Made by a program: the position numbers and the translations under genes. Below the pieces are notes generated by a model. The model made no database searches. It was given only the letters and a program-made list of their open reading frames with translations, and was not told where the DNA came from. Below are positions 7,214 through 38,167 of a stretch of DNA of 54,507 bases, in pieces. Numbering within the stretch: position 1 is the stretch's first letter; each line of letters starts with the position of its first letter. Origin of the DNA: a virus; the IMG/VR virus record IMGVR_UViG_3300045612_000538, positions 1 through 54,507 of that record. One strand, written 5' to 3'.

Positions 7214-7510
7214 TTACAATCCATTCTTTTTATATTGACGGAGGCAAATATCATATACTGATCTAGGCAATTTTTGTACAACATCAACTATACCGTTTTC
7301 GACACCAAAATAAAACTTTTCTTTAGGTATGTGTCTATTAATCATTTTTGGCATTGATAAAAACCCTGCGCTTTCTTTTAAATCTTTGCAATAAACCAGC
7401 AACTCTCCAAGATAAGTTCCTTTAATTACCGCATAAATGTATCTTGGTCTTGGGTGTATCTTAGAAAAGCTGCTCTTTAAGCGCTGTAATACATTTTTCA
7501 GATGAGTCAT
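7214..7510 (-). CDS. Hypothetical protein
   Basis: 98 residues, not recognised. It is basic at the N-terminus, then has alternating strands and helices (YIYAVIKGTYLGELLVYCKD) that suggest a small alpha/beta fold. It overlaps the end of the sugar reductase gene by 50 bases and is presumably co-transcribed with it. Confidence 0.55.
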   Translation of the reverse strand: MTHLKNVLQRLKSSFSKIHPRPRYIYAVIKGTYLGELLVYCKDLKESAGFLSMPKMINRHIPKEKFYFGVENGIVDVVQKLPRSVYDICLRQYKKNGL

Positions 7511-8336
7511 AAATGTCTGGTAACTCTAGTCCTATTTTAGATATTTTATCTGTTGATAGCAAGCAATTTGATCGATTTACCTTAAAATTTAATTCACTGT
7601 AATCTTTAAACTGCCATTTCAAATTTTGCATGCTATTTCTTTTTAAAATATCTACAACCGTTGACGCTTTGATACCACCCTTATTGGTGACATTGTAGAT
7701 ACCAGGCCTTATATATTGATAATTCAAAGATATAAATTTATAAATAAAAACACAAAGGTCCTCGACGCATGTACAGCTATTAGGCATGTCAATGAGTGTA
7801 TCGTAATTTAAGATTTTTATAAAATAATTTTTTCTGTTTATCTCACTCGTGAAGGGTATGCGAATTCGTAAAATGCTTGTGTTTACAAAGTTTGTTATTA
7901 ATTCAGCTGCATGTTTTGTTTTAGAATAAAAACTACTCTCAGTATCAAACAATCCAAAATTAGGTGTATCTGTCTCGCTATATTCTTTAAGATATCCGGT
8001 ATATATGCAACCGCTAGAAATGGTGATTAATGCAAAGTTGTGTTGAATACAAAAATAATTTAGCAGAGATTGTAGTTTAACGTTATATTCGAAACATATC
8101 TCTTTATTATCCTCACAGCTCTCTACGTTTGGATTACCGGTATAACCTGAGCAATTAATAATAGTAACGTGATTATTTTTTACTGTTGTATTGATGTATT
8201 CTTCTAATTTTTCTAAATTAAAATAGTCACATTCTTTCCTGGAAATATGGTAAACATCTAAATTTTCGTTGTGCAAAAACGAAAAAAGCTTGTTACCAAT
8301 AAATCCTTTACCTAGGATTATAATAGAGTCGCGCAC
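7461..8336 (-). CDS. RmlD-like NAD(P)-dependent sugar reductase/epimerase
   Basis: 291 residues, extended SDR fold. The Rossmann glycine motif is LGKGFIGNKL at residues 8-17. The active-site Ser/Thr region reads ISSGCIY and the catalytic pair is YSKTK (Y-x-x-x-K). C-terminal substrate-binding residues follow the dTDP-4-dehydrorhamnose reductase (RmlD) style. It likely makes or reduces a nucleotide sugar for glycans or virion decoration. Its sugar cannot be read from sequence. It is alone here, over 30 kb from the main glycan operon (40598-48006). Confidence 0.75.
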   Translation of the reverse strand: MRDSIIILGKGFIGNKLFSFLHNENLDVYHISRKECDYFNLEKLEEYINTTVKNNHVTIINCSGYTGNPNVESCEDNKEICFEYNVKLQSLLNYFCIQHNFALITISSGCIYTGYLKEYSETDTPNFGLFDTESSFYSKTKHAAELITNFVNTSILRIRIPFTSEINRKNYFIKILNYDTLIDMPNSCTCVEDLCVFIYKFISLNYQYIRPGIYNVTNKGGIKASTVVDILKRNSMQNLKWQFKDYSELNFKVNRSNCLLSTDKISKIGLELPDIYDSSEKCITALKEQLF

Positions 8337-15867: not shown

Positions 15868-16740
15868 ATGAATAGAGATATACATTTAATATATGAGAAT
15901 TATGTTAGATCTCGTAATCCAAACCTGTTAAATGAGTTGTCTCCAGTAGAAATGGAGGGCGGTATTGATGTAGGCCCTGTTGTAAACAAGACTTTGCCGG
16001 GGCAAGGAAAGCAATATGGCGCAGGGGCAATAAAGAAAGTAGCTGAAATACAGGGTAAATCAGAGAATGAAGTTGCTGAAGACATGGCTAAAACTATTAT
16101 AGCAAAAACTGGCGATAAAAAAGAAGTTAATGGCAAAATGGTGCATTATTTTTCTGGAGAACCGGATGCATTTATCAATAGCTTAGTACCAGAATTTAAA
16201 CAAAAATATGGTATAAGCCCTACTATGGCAAAATATACAATTAATTATATTTTAATATATATTCTTCATGCTAAAAAAACTTTGGGAGGGTTAGTCAAAC
16301 TAAATACTAAAAATATATCGAACCCTGAAACATTACCAGACCAGCCTGTTGTGGTCGATAAAAAATTTCCTACTGAAGAAGAAGGATACGAAAGCGGATT
16401 TATTTATTACAAAAATAATGAAGCTGTTCTAGAAGGAAAATTAAATGAAATTTTTAAGGGAATGAGCGATGAAATAGACGGCGATGATATGTCTACTTCT
16501 ATTAAGAAAAACATGATTATAGCTGGAGTAGATAGACGCCAGTTTTGGGATGTTGTTACAGGTTTATTAAAAAATAAGGCTTTTTTTGAAAGAAAAAAAG
16601 ATACTAGAATGCTTGATGATGTGGACGGGTTAGCTATCGGTCCAATACCTACATCTGATAGAGATATAGAGGATGCAATTAGGGAGCTACCTTCATATAA
16701 AGAAATGCTAAGACAGAAGTCAAGAGAAGCTATATATTAA
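15868..16740 (+). CDS. Virion-type protein with CTS-like N-terminus
   Basis: 290 residues, not recognised. The N-terminus MNRDIHLIYENYVRSR and following NLLNEL resemble a capsid-targeting segment with an LxE cleavage site near residue 23. The body is mixed charged, with one aromatic-rich helix (YTINYILIYILHAKK near residue 125). It is a lone plus-strand gene inside a long minus-strand block and has its own late box, consistent with late expression. It ends with an 11-base overlap against convergent queC. Confidence 0.75.
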   Translation: MNRDIHLIYENYVRSRNPNLLNELSPVEMEGGIDVGPVVNKTLPGQGKQYGAGAIKKVAEIQGKSENEVAEDMAKTIIAKTGDKKEVNGKMVHYFSGEPDAFINSLVPEFKQKYGISPTMAKYTINYILIYILHAKKTLGGLVKLNTKNISNPETLPDQPVVVDKKFPTEEEGYESGFIYYKNNEAVLEGKLNEIFKGMSDEIDGDDMSTSIKKNMIIAGVDRRQFWDVVTGLLKNKAFFERKKDTRMLDDVDGLAIGPIPTSDRDIEDAIRELPSYKEMLRQKSREAIY

Positions 16741-17467
16741 TTTTTTTACAGTTATTTTTCTCCCAAGGTATTTCAATTTTATATGGTAAAGGATCAATAT
16801 ATCCAGCATCTAGAAATCCCTTTATCCTAAGCGAACAAGCCGTACATTTACCGCATGCAATATTTTTACCTTCATAGCATGTCCAGGTTTTACTAAAATC
16901 GACACCTAAGCTAATACCCGTTTTAACAATATCTGCTTTTGATTTAGTTAGAAGAGGTGCAATAACTTCTATTTTAGTCCGTCGATTTAAAGAGGATAAT
17001 TCGTTTATTTTGTCTAAAAATTCCGGGCTTCCATCCCAGTATCCAGCGACACTATCAGCTTGCGCCGCTCCATGAATAATTTTTGCAGCATTATTACTCT
17101 CTGCATATGCAAGACAAATACTTAAAAGCATTATGTTTCTAAACGGTACATAATTAACTGTTTGAGGATCACCCATAACATTCTTAGCATAGGCTACTTT
17201 AATTTTTTTATTCGTTAAAGCACTAGTGCGGGCTATATCCTTAAAAAATGAAATTGGAACAATAGTATGATTTGTTTTTTTAGTACCATATTTTTCCCTA
17301 ACAGAATCAATTTGAAGTTTTGCACACTTCAACTCTTTTTTATGTTTTTGATCATAATTAAATGATATAGCATCTGTATGACTATAGATTTTGACTGCGT
17401 AATGCAGCAATACAGAACTATCCATTCCTCCGCTGACAGGAACTACAACTCTACTCAACCGGCTCAT
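16730..17467 (-). CDS. queC: 7-cyano-7-deazaguanine (preQ0) synthase QueC
   Basis: Converts 7-carboxy-7-deazaguanine to preQ0 with ATP and ammonia. 245 residues. The PP-loop is VSGGMDSSVLL at residue 12, and the C-terminal zinc site is CYEG...ACGKCTAC (residues about 198-215). YVPFRNIMLLS and GAAQADSVAGYWD are also typical. It overlaps the end of uvsX by 17 bases, so it is expressed with recombination genes. Its pathway partners FolE, QueD and QueE lie 17-21 kb away. Confidence 0.95.
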   Translation of the reverse strand: MSRLSRVVVPVSGGMDSSVLLHYAVKIYSHTDAISFNYDQKHKKELKCAKLQIDSVREKYGTKKTNHTIVPISFFKDIARTSALTNKKIKVAYAKNVMGDPQTVNYVPFRNIMLLSICLAYAESNNAAKIIHGAAQADSVAGYWDGSPEFLDKINELSSLNRRTKIEVIAPLLTKSKADIVKTGISLGVDFSKTWTCYEGKNIACGKCTACSLRIKGFLDAGYIDPLPYKIEIPWEKNNCKKINI

Positions 17468-29832: not shown

Positions 29833-31017
29833 ATGAGGCTTTTTGATGAATACTATTTTTTAGTAAACGAAAAAGCTAGTCTTCTTCATCCTTATTCATT
29901 ACCAAATATTACAACTGGTAATGATCTTGTACGTTTTTTTCAAGAATCTATATCATCAATTGAGAATGGCAAAGCTACCTTAAAGTTTGATGGTGTTAAC
30001 TGTTCATTAAGATTTCAAAATAATCAATTTGTTTTAGATCGTTTTTCCTTGAAAGACGAGGAAGGTATAACAGCAGATAAGTTATCTTCAAGATTTAAAG
30101 AAGGACATGGTCTTATTGATGCGGGTCAAACAATATTAAAAATCTTTAATAATTCTATTCCTAATATACAACAAGAGCTTCATGAGTTAAGAATGTTAGA
30201 AAAAAGTAATATTGTTTTAAATATAGAATTTATTCAAGGTACAACAAACGTTATAAATTATAAACACAATTATTTTGTTATACATAATGTATTAGAAATT
30301 TATGAAGCTTTTAGTCCGGTAAGAAAATCTAGAAGCAGAAAAGTTAGAGCTATAGATTATGATAAAAATTCTTTAGAAAGATTAGTAAAAAAAATAAATT
30401 TAGAAGCTAATAAATTCAATTTTAATGTGGTACATAGAGAAATAGTGCGTTTTTCTACTAAACCAGATTTAAATAAAATTTTAAATTCTAAATTAGACAT
30501 AAAAATAAATGAAGAAAATATTCAATCTGATACTTTAAAAAATCTGCTAGAAAAAGCAAAAAATACAAGCAACGTTATAGTAAAACTTTTTGATAAAAGC
30601 TCAGTTCGAGCTCTAAGCAGAAAGATATACCTTTTATTCGCAGGTGGTTACAGTATCGAGCAAATTTTACTAGATTTAAATAAAGTCCAAGCCGTTGTAG
30701 ATGGTATTGTCTTTTATCATACTACTATGTTCTTAGGACAAGAAATTTTAAACTGCTTGGTTTCTAATTTAGGGCCTGTAAATGAACAAGAAGGTATTGT
30801 TATTAATGATATAACTTTATCACACGTACCTTTTAAAATTACCGGCACATTTATGACAAGGAATTATTTTGAGAGTAAATTTAGAAATGAAGAAGAGGAA
30901 TATGGATTTAAAGGTTTTTATAATAATGTACAAAAAACTTTAGGAGTTCCTTTTACAGAACCCGAATACGGTAAGCAAAGTCCGCAATTAAGATTAACAC
31001 CGGGAATGGTTATATGA
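29833..31017 (+). CDS. KxDG (ligase-like) nucleotidyltransferase, probably packaged
   Basis: 394 residues. The core motifs of the covalent nucleotidyltransferase/ligase superfamily appear in order: motif I LKFDGVN with Lys51, motif III LNIEFIQG with Glu132, motif IV EGIVI at residues 320-324, and motif V PFKITG with Lys335. It would form a lysyl-AMP intermediate, as DNA or RNA ligases do. A long insert (about 140-310) separates III and IV. The N-terminus MRLFDEYYFLVNEKA looks like a capsid-targeting segment. AAAAGG before the ATG is a close ribosome site. Substrate unknown. Confidence 0.7.
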   Translation: MRLFDEYYFLVNEKASLLHPYSLPNITTGNDLVRFFQESISSIENGKATLKFDGVNCSLRFQNNQFVLDRFSLKDEEGITADKLSSRFKEGHGLIDAGQTILKIFNNSIPNIQQELHELRMLEKSNIVLNIEFIQGTTNVINYKHNYFVIHNVLEIYEAFSPVRKSRSRKVRAIDYDKNSLERLVKKINLEANKFNFNVVHREIVRFSTKPDLNKILNSKLDIKINEENIQSDTLKNLLEKAKNTSNVIVKLFDKSSVRALSRKIYLLFAGGYSIEQILLDLNKVQAVVDGIVFYHTTMFLGQEILNCLVSNLGPVNEQEGIVINDITLSHVPFKITGTFMTRNYFESKFRNEEEEYGFKGFYNNVQKTLGVPFTEPEYGKQSPQLRLTPGMVI

Positions 31018-31679
31018 ATACCTTTCAAGATTTTTATAATAAATCTCTTAAAAATAACTTAGTAGTTATATTTCCAGGTAGATTCCAGCCTTTTCATCCG
31101 GGGCATAAAAAACTTTATGATTATGCAAAAGAGCAGTTTCCTGCTGCAGATTTTAAAATAGCTACTAGCAATGTGAATAGAACCACAACATATGAAGATC
31201 CTCGATATAAAATAGATCCTGAAAGATACCCTTTTACGTTTGAAGAAAAGAAAAAAATAATTCAAGCGTACGGTATACACGAATCTGAAATACAGCTAAC
31301 AGCTAATCCGTATAAAGCTGTAGAAATTTTAAAAGATTATAAACCGGAATTTACCAAAGTTATCTTTATTGGTGGAAAAAAGAATGAAAGTGAATCTGAA
31401 GGTAAGCCTAGATTTAGCTACTCTGAAACGTCTTATTTTCAGCCATTTAAAAAATTAGAAGATCTACAGCCATTTGATCCAAATCATAATGGTCATGCAT
31501 ATATTTATGAACCCTTAACGCTTACGTTTAAATTAGGAGAACAAATAGTACAAGACGCAAGTCAACTAAGAAAAATGTATAAAGAAGCTGACGAACAAAC
31601 AAAAAGAAATTATATAAGAGAATTGTTAGGAGAGTTTAATAAAGAGATTTATGATTTATTTTCTTCTAAATTAAGTTGA
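31014..31679 (+). CDS. NMNAT/cytidylyltransferase-like protein, probably packaged
   Basis: 221 residues. The HxGH superfamily signature is FPGRFQPFHPGHKKLYDYAK at about residues 20-39, and a C-terminal IVQDASQLRKMY supplies the (S/T)xxR-type motif. Members transfer AMP or CMP to NMN, phosphopantetheine or sugar/lipid phosphates; NAD-type chemistry is most likely but not certain. The first residues MNTFQDFYNKSLKN resemble the packaging N-terminus. It overlaps the ligase-like gene by 4 bases, so the two should act together. Confidence 0.75.
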   Translation: MNTFQDFYNKSLKNNLVVIFPGRFQPFHPGHKKLYDYAKEQFPAADFKIATSNVNRTTTYEDPRYKIDPERYPFTFEEKKKIIQAYGIHESEIQLTANPYKAVEILKDYKPEFTKVIFIGGKKNESESEGKPRFSYSETSYFQPFKKLEDLQPFDPNHNGHAYIYEPLTLTFKLGEQIVQDASQLRKMYKEADEQTKRNYIRELLGEFNKEIYDLFSSKLS

Positions 31680-32548: not shown

Positions 32549-32680
32549 ATGAAATCATTTAAAACGTTTTTTACAGAAAAAAAGAAAGCTCCGCGTGGTG
32601 TATGTTGGAAGGGTTATAAAATGGTCGGCCATAAAAAGAAAGGTGGCAAAACGGTTCCTAATTGTGTACCAAATAAGTGA
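32549..32680 (+). CDS. 43-residue basic peptide, packaged-type
   Basis: 43 residues: an aromatic N-terminus (MKSFKTFFTEKKK) with FTE-K as a possible cleavage site, then a basic body RGVCWKGYKMVGHKKKGGK and an end TVPNCVPNK. The WKGYKMVG and VPNCVP motifs resemble a short module I recall from T4-like marine phage proteins, of unknown function. Two cysteines are 21 residues apart. A late box precedes it and its TGA overlaps the GTG of the protease-like gene, so the two are coupled. Confidence 0.75.
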   Translation: MKSFKTFFTEKKKAPRGVCWKGYKMVGHKKKGGKTVPNCVPNK

Positions 32681-33643: not shown

Positions 33644-34297
33644 TTAGATTAATTTTCTGTTCTGCGCAAACTCAATAAACTTATAAAACTCATTTCTCGA
33701 GTTATCATTATTATCTAGAAAGGCTCCGGACATCCGAGCAGTTCGCATAGTAGAATCATGACGAATACCACGGTTAGAACAGCATGTATGATTAGCTTCA
33801 ATCATGACTGCAACACCATTATTTTTCTCACAAACATTATTAATATAATCATGAATTTGCATTGTAAGATTTTCTTGAACTTGTGGGCGGCGAGAAAACC
33901 AATCTACAATTCGATTTAATTTACTCAATCCAATTACTTTTCCGTTCTTTGCAGGTATGTAAGCCACGTGTGCAAATCCCATAAAAGGAGCATGGTGATG
34001 TGAGCAAAGCGAAGTTAATTTAATATTTGTTTGTGCTACAATTCCATCATACTTGTCAATATTATCAAATGCTGTAACTTTGGGAGGCTCACTATAACAA
34101 CCCCAGGCAAAATCTTCCACAAAAGCTTTAGCAACCCGGTGCGGTGTATTTGAACTATTAGGATCATTTCTCCAGTCATATCCAAGCGCATCCATATATG
34201 CTTCATATGCTTTAGCTGCTTTATCTATAATTTCGTGCTTTTCTTGTTCGTTTACCGGGTGATTGTGGTTTGCAAAAGCTAATTTTTTTCTACTCAT
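33644..34297 (-). CDS. folE: GTP cyclohydrolase I
   Basis: First step from GTP (to dihydroneopterin triphosphate) for preQ0 or folate. From the ATG at 34297 it has 217 residues. Zinc ligands are visible in SLCSHHHAPFMG and in HTCCSNRG. NTPHRVAKAF, GLSKLNRIVDWFSRRPQVQE and the C-terminal RTARMSGAF are family landmarks. The open frame continues 52 codons upstream into unrelated sequence, so the internal ATG giving MSRKKLAF is the proper start. Confidence 0.95.
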   Translation of the reverse strand: MSRKKLAFANHNHPVNEQEKHEIIDKAAKAYEAYMDALGYDWRNDPNSSNTPHRVAKAFVEDFAWGCYSEPPKVTAFDNIDKYDGIVAQTNIKLTSLCSHHHAPFMGFAHVAYIPAKNGKVIGLSKLNRIVDWFSRRPQVQENLTMQIHDYINNVCEKNNGVAVMIEANHTCCSNRGIRHDSTMRTARMSGAFLDNNDNSRNEFYKFIEFAQNRKLI

Positions 34298-34332
34298 CTT
34301 TAATTTTTTAATATAATAGTACTGTTTTTCAA

Positions 34333-34340
34333 GATAAATA
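34333..34340 (+). promoter_or_regulatory. Late promoter box deciding the start at 34347
   Basis: GATAAATA. An ATG touches its end at 34341 and a second in-frame ATG lies at 34347, six bases after the box. Expected transcription starts at 34346, so only the second ATG would be in the mRNA. Confidence 0.65.
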
Positions 34341-34346
34341 ATGTTA

Positions 34347-34778
34347 ATGAAAGGTGATTCCTGTCTGACAAAATTGTTAGAATCTAGTTCTCTTAAGAAA
34401 ATTAGAATAAAAGTAGATCCTAAAGAAATTTCTAAAGCTACAGATTTTAGCAAGTGTAACGGATATGAAGGTTATATTTTAAGAGAAAAATTAGGTAAAA
34501 CAAAGATTATAGTTTTATCCCCGGATTTTCCAGTATTTGATGATATCCCGGTTGAATTTTTAGAAACCATTTTAAACGATCAGAACGTAGATATTGTAGA
34601 TGAATTTAAGTGCTTCGTACACGGTAAGCTGGAGATCAAGGACGGGGACCCTTTAATACAGTGTCTATCTAAAGCTGAAACAATTGAAGACATAGAAGCC
34701 GGTCTCCGTCAAAAAGGATTGGAACCACAGGCTATTTGTGAGCTTTACAGAGATTTTATTTCTAATGAGCAAGTTTAA
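34347..34778 (+). CDS. Hypothetical protein
   Basis: 143 residues, not recognised. It looks alpha/beta with a hydrophobic strand KTKIIVLSPDFPVFDDIP near residue 55 and a helical, acidic C-terminus (ETIEDIEAGLRQKG). The start is ATG 34347 rather than 34341 because of the late box. It overlaps the next gene by 14 bases and is presumably its operon partner. Confidence 0.65.
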   Translation: MKGDSCLTKLLESSSLKKIRIKVDPKEISKATDFSKCNGYEGYILREKLGKTKIIVLSPDFPVFDDIPVEFLETILNDQNVDIVDEFKCFVHGKLEIKDGDPLIQCLSKAETIEDIEAGLRQKGLEPQAICELYRDFISNEQV

Positions 34779-35745: not shown

Positions 35746-36378
35746 ATGAAATATCAGAGTACAAAAATAATTGAACTTGGTAGTTGTGCATTCCGTCAAT
35801 GGAGAGCTGAAAGTCATTGTAAATTTATACACGGATATCGGCTTACAGCAAAGTTTTGGTTTTTTTGTAATGAATTAGACGATAAAGGTTGGGTTGTAGA
35901 TTTCGGTGCATTAGATAACTTGAAAAGCGAGCTACAAAAAATGTTTGATCATACAACTTGTATTGCTTTAGATGATCCATATCTTAAAGAATTTGAAAAT
36001 TTAGCTAAGCTTGGTATTGTTGATTTAAGAGTCTTTCCTTACGGCGTTGGTATTGAAAAGTTTACACGAGAAGCATTTAATATTGCAAACAAAAATGTTA
36101 AAGCAATGACAAATGATCGTTGTTGGGTAACGAGAGTAGAAATGTGGGAGCATGAAAAAAATTCAGCTATATATGAAGAAGCAACAGCCATTACATCTAT
36201 TTCAGTTGGCTCACCAGTACCTGCGATGGTATCTAACTCTGCAGCAGGAGATACATTACAGGAACAACCTCAAGTCAATAACCCGGTAGCTGATAACCCC
36301 CGGGCAGCTCCTTTATATACAAAAAAGAGTTCTGGATATAGTAATTTATTTGGTGGTACTAGTTGGGGAAATAAATGA
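35746..36378 (+). CDS. queD: Divergent QueD (6-carboxytetrahydropterin synthase) with C-terminal extension
   Basis: Second step of preQ0 synthesis. 210 residues; the PTPS/QueD core is residues 1-150. It reads SCAFRQWRAESHCKFIHGYRL where typical QueD has AAH...C...LHGH. The catalytic Cys and one His are kept, but the first Zn His is replaced by FRQW and the last by Tyr. DDKGWVVDFG and FDHTTCIALDDP are conserved. Residues 150-210 are an extra Ser/Asn/Pro-rich tail. TATAATTA lies five bases before the ATG, so it too looks leaderless. Confidence 0.85.
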   Translation: MKYQSTKIIELGSCAFRQWRAESHCKFIHGYRLTAKFWFFCNELDDKGWVVDFGALDNLKSELQKMFDHTTCIALDDPYLKEFENLAKLGIVDLRVFPYGVGIEKFTREAFNIANKNVKAMTNDRCWVTRVEMWEHEKNSAIYEEATAITSISVGSPVPAMVSNSAAGDTLQEQPQVNNPVADNPRAAPLYTKKSSGYSNLFGGTSWGNK

Positions 36379-37423: not shown

Positions 37424-38167
37424 ATGAATGAAAATTCTTACATTTTTTTAAGTGATGATAGAATTTTTTATACTATTGAAGGGGAGGGTGAGTATGTAGG
37501 GAGACCTTCTGTTTTTATGCGATTATCTATGTGTAATCTTACATGTAGAGGGTTTGCATCATCAGATTCACCTCATGGTTGCGATAGCTTTATTAGCTGG
37601 TCTGTAAAAAATCGTATGACTTTTGATGAAATTTTTGATTACATGTCACAAAATAGTTATAACTGTAATTTAAAAGACGGTGCTATATGGAAGATAACTG
37701 GGGGTGAACCTCTTATTCAACAAAAAAATCTATTAGGATTAGTACAAGCCTTTAAAGATCGATATGGCTTTACACCTCATATCGACTTTGAAACAAATGC
37801 TACTATTATGCCCGATTCAGAATGGAAAGATAAATGGGGTGCAACGTTTACAACATCTCCAAAGCTTTCTAACAACGGTGATCCTGTAGAGAAACGCTAT
37901 AAGCCTGAAGTATTAAAATGGCATGCTAAAAATAATTCTGGTTTTAAATTTGTAGTTAGCGGTGAAGATGAAGTAAAAGAAATATTAGAAAAATACGTAT
38001 ATGAGTGTATTGTACCGGTAAATCGAATATGGCTTATGCCTTGTTGTGGAAGCCGCGAAGAACATACACAACAAAGTTCGATTGTTGCAGATTTATGTAA
38101 GAAATATAATTTTAAGTTTAGTCCGAGGTTGCAGTTAGTTATTTGGAATAAAGCACTTAAGGTTTAA
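37424..38167 (+). CDS. queE: 7-carboxy-7-deazaguanine synthase QueE
   Basis: Radical SAM enzyme, third step of preQ0 synthesis. 247 residues. It shows FYTIEGEGEYVGRPSVFMRL, the typical QueE opening, then cysteines as C-x3-C-x11-C (CNLTCRGFASSDSPHGCD), a stretched version of the usual CxxxCxxC. ITGGEPLIQ is the SAM-binding GGEP motif and IDFETNAT follows. The stretch between the last cysteines occurs in known QueE variants. The 3' end overlaps the convergent methyltransferase by 11 bases. Confidence 0.93.
   Translation: MNENSYIFLSDDRIFYTIEGEGEYVGRPSVFMRLSMCNLTCRGFASSDSPHGCDSFISWSVKNRMTFDEIFDYMSQNSYNCNLKDGAIWKITGGEPLIQQKNLLGLVQAFKDRYGFTPHIDFETNATIMPDSEWKDKWGATFTTSPKLSNNGDPVEKRYKPEVLKWHAKNNSGFKFVVSGEDEVKEILEKYVYECIVPVNRIWLMPCCGSREEHTQQSSIVADLCKKYNFKFSPRLQLVIWNKALKV

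Follow-up and report, generated by a model that had tools for sequence, protein, structure and literature searches.

We describe a pair of overlapping phage genes, ORF 1 and ORF 2, that probably form a two-enzyme unit, in which an adenylyl-transferring enzyme of ligase fold would be joined by a partner supplying its nucleotide donor. The pairing of a ligase-like with an NMNAT-like gene is real, conserved and under-annotated, and both genes are already present in databases. In this analysis the proposal is based on fold ranking, motifs, homology to a fused family and conserved pairing, to which reports on relatives add the presence of an NMNAT-like protein in virions.

The gene pair and its surroundings

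The window, the whole 54.5-kb stretch of DNA analyzed, contains a T4-type portal, PhoH, QueC and GTP cyclohydrolase I, as identified by Pfam matches. Judged from this gene content, it comes from a T4-like phage, of whose larger genome it is probably a fragment. Its portal protein shares only about 33% identity with the best-matching phage records. The two ORFs and the features within them lie on the + strand. ORF 1 (P0003; 29833..31017) encodes 394 amino acids and ORF 2 (P0004; 31014..31679) encodes 221; from their coordinates they overlap by 4 bases, ATGA (31014..31017), so that both frames and their overlap are as the sequence-only reading had described them. The T4 late promoter TATAAATA was considered as a sign of late expression and rejected, with 11 sites in the window versus 16.6 expected by chance. 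Four genes elsewhere in the window (16730-17467, 33644-34453, 35746-36378 and 37424-38167) comprise QueC and GTP cyclohydrolase I, from Pfam, and QueD-like and QueE-like genes recognized by eye. This set suggests a deazaguanine pathway, possibly used for DNA modification.

A predicted ligase-like fold in ORF 1

Four motifs of the ligase superfamily had been proposed for ORF 1, and all four are borne out in ligase order (K-x-D-G, E, EGxV, then a motif V-like lysine). Motif I is K51-F-D-G (29983..29994), with K51 as the predicted adenylylated lysine. The motif III-like E132 lies within NIEF (30226..30228), motif IV is E320-G-I-V (residues 320-323; 30790..30801) and the motif V-like lysine is K335 in FKITG (30835..30837). 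Between motifs III and IV, the NVINY(139-143)...H151 signature (30247..30285) is common to a family of fused relatives described below. In the alignment of ORF 1 with its relatives, K51, D53, G54, R70, E132, N139, Y143 and H151 are invariant; H19-P20 (29887..29892), 5' of motif I, is likewise invariant across all aligned members. The motif order combined with the NxIxY...H signature was reproduced by none of 200,000 shuffles of the ORF 1 protein, and its sole match among 217 control ORFs was the orthologue of ORF 1 itself.

The insert of about 170 residues expected between motifs III and IV (30286..30789) is also present, and is mainly helical in the AlphaFold model. It is shorter than the insert that precedes EGxV in the relatives, which in turn miss the C-terminal tail of ORF 1. 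Because of this shorter insert, the full-length alignment of ORF 1 and its relatives puts motif IV in the wrong place, and therefore the N-terminal part of the relatives alone entered the model of ORF 1. Motifs IV and V were compared by eye with EGIVF and YKFTG of the relatives, and motif V also with IKCK of T4 Rnl2. Motif V of ORF 1 has a single lysine, the second one of the usual KxK being absent. Such a reduced motif V, together with the low fold scores given below, would fit a structural or scaffold protein keeping an inactive ligase fold. We consider this highly improbable, given that even distant members keep the K, D, G, R and E of motifs I, Ia and III unchanged, a conservation that argues for an active adenylyl-transfer centre in ORF 1.

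For ORF 1, searches of Pfam, PHROGs, NCBIfam and the PDB sequences yielded nothing meaningful, and tblastn against phages gave no match; the profile of its ligase-like family gave chance matches only in the PDB. An orthologue with 73% identity and the same gene order is found in the closest relative (L003). The NMNAT-like protein, used as a query, retrieved long fused proteins from Mel-JY01 (639 aa), LR756508 (915 aa) and an IMG/VR contig (1973 aa), to whose C-terminal domain ORF 1 is homologous. By BLASTP, ORF 1 matched the Mel-JY01 protein at E 2e-7 and the 1973-aa protein at E 2e-5; the fused-family HMM matched ORF 1 at E 6e-9, and hhalign aligned residues 16-193 with the fused-family profile at E 5e-6.

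The AlphaFold model of ORF 1 was poor (pLDDT 58) and that of the domain of a relative was good (pLDDT 82, pTM 0.78). When both were compared by Foldseek with 350,542 PDB chains, ranks 1-26 for ORF 1 were all RNA or DNA ligases, and ranks 1-8 for the relative were all RNA ligases, the next match being at E 1.5. These ligase matches are weak (E 0.006-0.2) and none in the PDB reaches E 0.001; therefore the fold assignment rests on a consistent ranking and not on one strong score. Searched against BFVD, the model of the relative retrieved members of its own family, followed by the S-PM2 cytidyltransferase-like protein (E 4.5e-4); the named matches after these were mainly RNA ligases. The fused family aligned weakly with T4 Rnl2 by hhalign (p 0.018), with EKTDGQNL...ARN placed on EKIHGTNF...AKR, so that motifs I and Ia are in register; ORF 1 alone found nothing in Rnl2. 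The Pfam RNA_ligase model (PF09414) had no match in the window and touched the Mel-JY01 domain at motif I, below its cut-off (E 0.015). Taken together, the motifs, the fused-family homology and the ligase ranking of two models support the proposed ligase/nucleotidyltransferase reading, and ORF 1 probably adopts a divergent covalent nucleotidyltransferase (ligase/capping) fold. Its family would be a previously unrecognised distant cousin of the RNA ligases. T4 Rnl2 and Rnl1 are among the top fold matches, but ORF 1 differs from them in its long helical insert, in the missing motif V lysine and in having no significant sequence match to them.

Since both models come nearest in fold to Rnl1, Rnl2 and archaeal RNA ligases, ORF 1 could simply be an ATP-dependent RNA ligase that rejoins tRNAs cleaved by host defences, with an NMNAT-like partner loosely related to it through general nucleotide supply. 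RNA repair is common in phages (PMC7824862), and T4 Rnl2 adjoins head gene 24. However, two of the relatives (LR756508 and LR756500) already have ordinary RNA_ligase genes at another site, neither a polynucleotide kinase nor a phosphatase was recognised next to the pair, and the repeated fusion to an NMNAT-like domain is left without explanation. We regard plain RNA repair as rather unlikely.

ORF 2 and its association with ligase-like genes

ORF 2 carries the GRFQPFHPGH nucleotide-binding motif (residues 22-31; 31077..31106), and the NMNAT-like reading proposed for it holds: it passes the Pfam CTP_transf_like model PF01467 (E 5e-10, 40 bits versus a cut-off of 21) and is above the cut-off of TIGR00125. 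The profile of its family is nearest to the structures of MJ0541 and NadM, which are NMN adenylyltransferases. ORF 2 shares with these the GRFQPFHxGH motif but has no Nudix domain, and its SGTxxR motif is degenerate (DASQLR, 181-186; 31554..31571), with the arginine invariant in the family alignment. It also falls far below the cut-off of every NCBIfam NMNAT model, and NMN is therefore only a candidate substrate. By sequence comparison, ORF 2 would be a HIGH-family nucleotidyltransferase closest to the archaeal-type/NadM NMN adenylyltransferases.

This proximity raises the alternative that ORF 2 restores NAD+ after the action of a host NADase defence, ORF 1 being a nucleotide-forming accessory and not a nucleic-acid enzyme. 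NAD+ rebuilding has been described in phages (PMC9503650, PMC12774641). In a published survey, phage NadM is accompanied by NadV (PMC9503650), and a NadV-type phosphoribosyltransferase (PF04095) is present in LR756500 but absent from Mel-JY01 and LR756508. Plain NAD+ salvage is weakened by this absence from two of the three large relatives, and ORF 1 is most like nucleic-acid ligases; we find it unlikely.

The association of the two genes goes well beyond the window. A scan with the Mel-JY01 protein yielded 304 IMG/VR stretches, and of the 93 ORFs whose ligase-like domain scored highly, 51 have the NMNAT motif within the same ORF; many of the remaining ones are cut by contig ends. The order NMNAT-to-ligase is found as a fusion in Mel-JY01, LR756508, L010 (the 1973-aa protein) and many IMG/VR loci, and the gene order ligase-to-NMNAT in the window, L003 and LR756500. 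The Mel-JY01 fused protein (WWT39297.1, from a Microcystis phage) and its IMG/VR relatives show clear homology in both domains, but as a single polypeptide with the opposite domain order to the window. In L003, a 256-aa gene (7234-8001), with a sub-threshold DUF570 match only, lies between the ligase-like and NMNAT-like genes. In LR756500, a stand-alone ligase-like gene precedes a gene (L013 7220-9187) whose product has an NMNAT-like domain at its C-terminus. The N-terminal part of this product contains an ENLDGSTVYV stretch, which from its sequence is possibly another ligase-like domain in altered form.

Overall, the pairing is well supported, and the fusions and the conserved adjacency in distant phages strongly support the view that ORF 1 and ORF 2 are one functional unit. 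Because many related phages fuse the two halves, the data suggest a joint task for them, and the occurrence of the fusion in either order would point to a shared substrate. The fused relatives resemble polyvalent proteins (PMC5512222), which are long phage proteins of several domains, encoded close to virion genes and presumed to be injected, but the searched passages of that source hold no ligase-plus-NMNAT combination.

A counterpart of the pair exists in cyanophages. S-PM2d138 consists of DUF6267 (PF19782, E 1.6e-111) fused to CTP_transf_like, with the domains ordered as in the window; it is matched by 547 phage records, in 201 of which a single place accounts for 80% or more of the protein. 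In S-SZBM1 and P-HM1 the DUF6267 and cytidylyltransferase genes are adjacent and overlapping, DUF6267 coming first in the cyanophage order. DUF6267 is listed as of unknown function, and its conserved residues follow an order similar to that of ORF 1 (KWDG, D/E, N-x-I/L-x-Y...H, EG-x-V, K). The pair corresponds to T4-GC71 and T4-GC190, annotated 'hypothetical' and 'cytitidyltransferase', respectively, and T4-GC190 is reported in the cyanophage core gene set. The likeness thus extends to motif order, gene order, the fusion in S-PM2 and the fold match to the S-PM2 protein. On the other hand, the Asp in QGDL and the HLEHLED N-terminus are features of DUF6267, and there is no significant sequence link to the window: the PF19782 model has no match in it at E up to 1, and hhalign of DUF6267 against the window family gave no significant match. 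ORF 1 is therefore treated as a family separate from DUF6267, with which it probably shares ancestry. The pair is not always adjacent, since in IMGVR_UViG_3300027668_000008 (the record behind L005) the NMNAT-like gene lies at about 72 kb and the DUF6267 gene at about 164 kb. In S-CREM2, the NMNAT-like gene has no annotated DUF6267-like neighbour.

Packaging in virions and proposed mechanism

T4 capsid-targeting peptides are short N-terminal peptides ending in L/I-X-E (PMC9026906). The N-terminal segment of ORF 1, MRLFDEYYFLVNE (29833..29871), is a possible, weak capsid-targeting/cleavage segment: its FLVNE and the LINE of the L003 orthologue are close to the T4 gp21 L/I-X-E site. The sequence-only reading had ascribed such N-termini to both proteins, but the first 30 residues of ORF 2 contain no L/I-X-E-type site, and ORF 1 has FLVNE only, with no clear excess window-wide. 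Indeed, [LIV]xE occurs at residues 6-26 in 21 of the 54 window proteins (39%) versus 30% of internal windows, and the motif alone is therefore no signal. A shared N-terminus between ORF 2 (MNTFQDFYN) and the protein at 32677 (MKNFQDFFN) was the best pair in the window and was rejected, as about 0.2 such pairs are expected counting all pairs. The 32677 protein is unrelated to ORF 2 and matches PF05618 (putative zinc protease) just below threshold.

In the fused family, 55 of 58 distinct cases, which are related and not independent, have an [LIV]xE ahead of the ligase-like domain, versus 13% of control windows; a T4-type prohead protease is present in 8 of 13 relatives. Two of the long proteins (L010 7980-13898, 1973 aa, and L099 3320-5254) have repeated ESVNE stretches between their modules, SVNE occurring 4 times in the former versus 0.02 expected and twice in the latter. 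By their sequence, these repeats look like prohead-protease sites of a polyprotein.

Published virion proteomes contain an NMNAT/cytidylyltransferase-like protein in S-SM1, where it is T4-GC190 (PMC3037559), S-SCSM1 (PMC9602691), S-SZBM1 (PMC9146016) and S-CREM2 (PMC10665884), and S-CBWM1 is cited for another in PMC10665884; the authors of the S-CREM2 (PMC10665884) and S-SCSM1 (PMC9602691) studies caution that such virion proteins may be carried over. S-SZBM1 is the only proteome for which the adjacent ligase-like (DUF6267) gene could be recognised. Its virion table lists genes 139 and 140 (the cytidylyltransferase) but not 141 (PMC9146016), which aligns with DUF6267 of S-PM2. S-SZBM1_140 starts with MRFRQFIIEA and fits the T4 L/I-X-E peptide pattern, whereas 141 does not. 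The idea that both proteins are packaged is thus backed by these proteomes for the relatives of ORF 2, but not for the ligase-like neighbour in S-SZBM1. By analogy, ORF 2 may well be packaged in the virion.

Packaging bears on a further alternative, in which ORF 1 would AMPylate or in another way nucleotidylate a host protein or small molecule as an injected takeover enzyme with a role like that of T4 Alt. A ligase fold could pass AMP to acceptors of other kinds, ORF 1 starts with a segment resembling T4 capsid-targeting peptides, and relatives lie within long proteins of several modules, one of which has the SVNE repeats. The missing DUF6267 counterpart in the S-SZBM1 virion list counts against it, and no direct hint of a protein acceptor was found; we consider such AMPylation very unlikely.

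For the two-enzyme unit that we favour, we infer adenylyl transfer by ORF 1, a nucleic-acid substrate, donor recycling and early action. ORF 1 would take an adenylyl group onto K51 and transfer it to a phosphorylated end, most probably that of an RNA or DNA, and ORF 2 would make or regenerate the nucleotide donor. In the specific version that we prefer, which would chemically join both enzymes, ORF 1 would use NAD+ and release NMN, and ORF 2 would turn NMN and ATP back into NAD+. The unit would be separately encoded in the window and fused elsewhere, and at least its NMNAT-like half would probably travel in the virion and act at the start of infection. A fuller scheme, in which a virion-delivered, self-sufficient NAD+-dependent ligase/capping system spends NAD+ in adenylylating nucleic-acid ends and recycles NMN, the prohead protease of the fused relatives releasing the enzymes from a polyprotein, seems quite unlikely.

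The pair had been thought to belong to no named system. In the literature searched, no paper gives the pair a name as a system or ascribes a ligase-like nature to the ORF 1 family or to DUF6267, but the pair itself had already been seen as cyanophage T4-GC71 and T4-GC190. If the proposal is true, it would give a testable biochemical role, through K51 adenylylation and NMN recycling, to a gene pair in hundreds of T4-like phages, and may account for the recurrence of an NMNAT-like enzyme in cyanophage particles.
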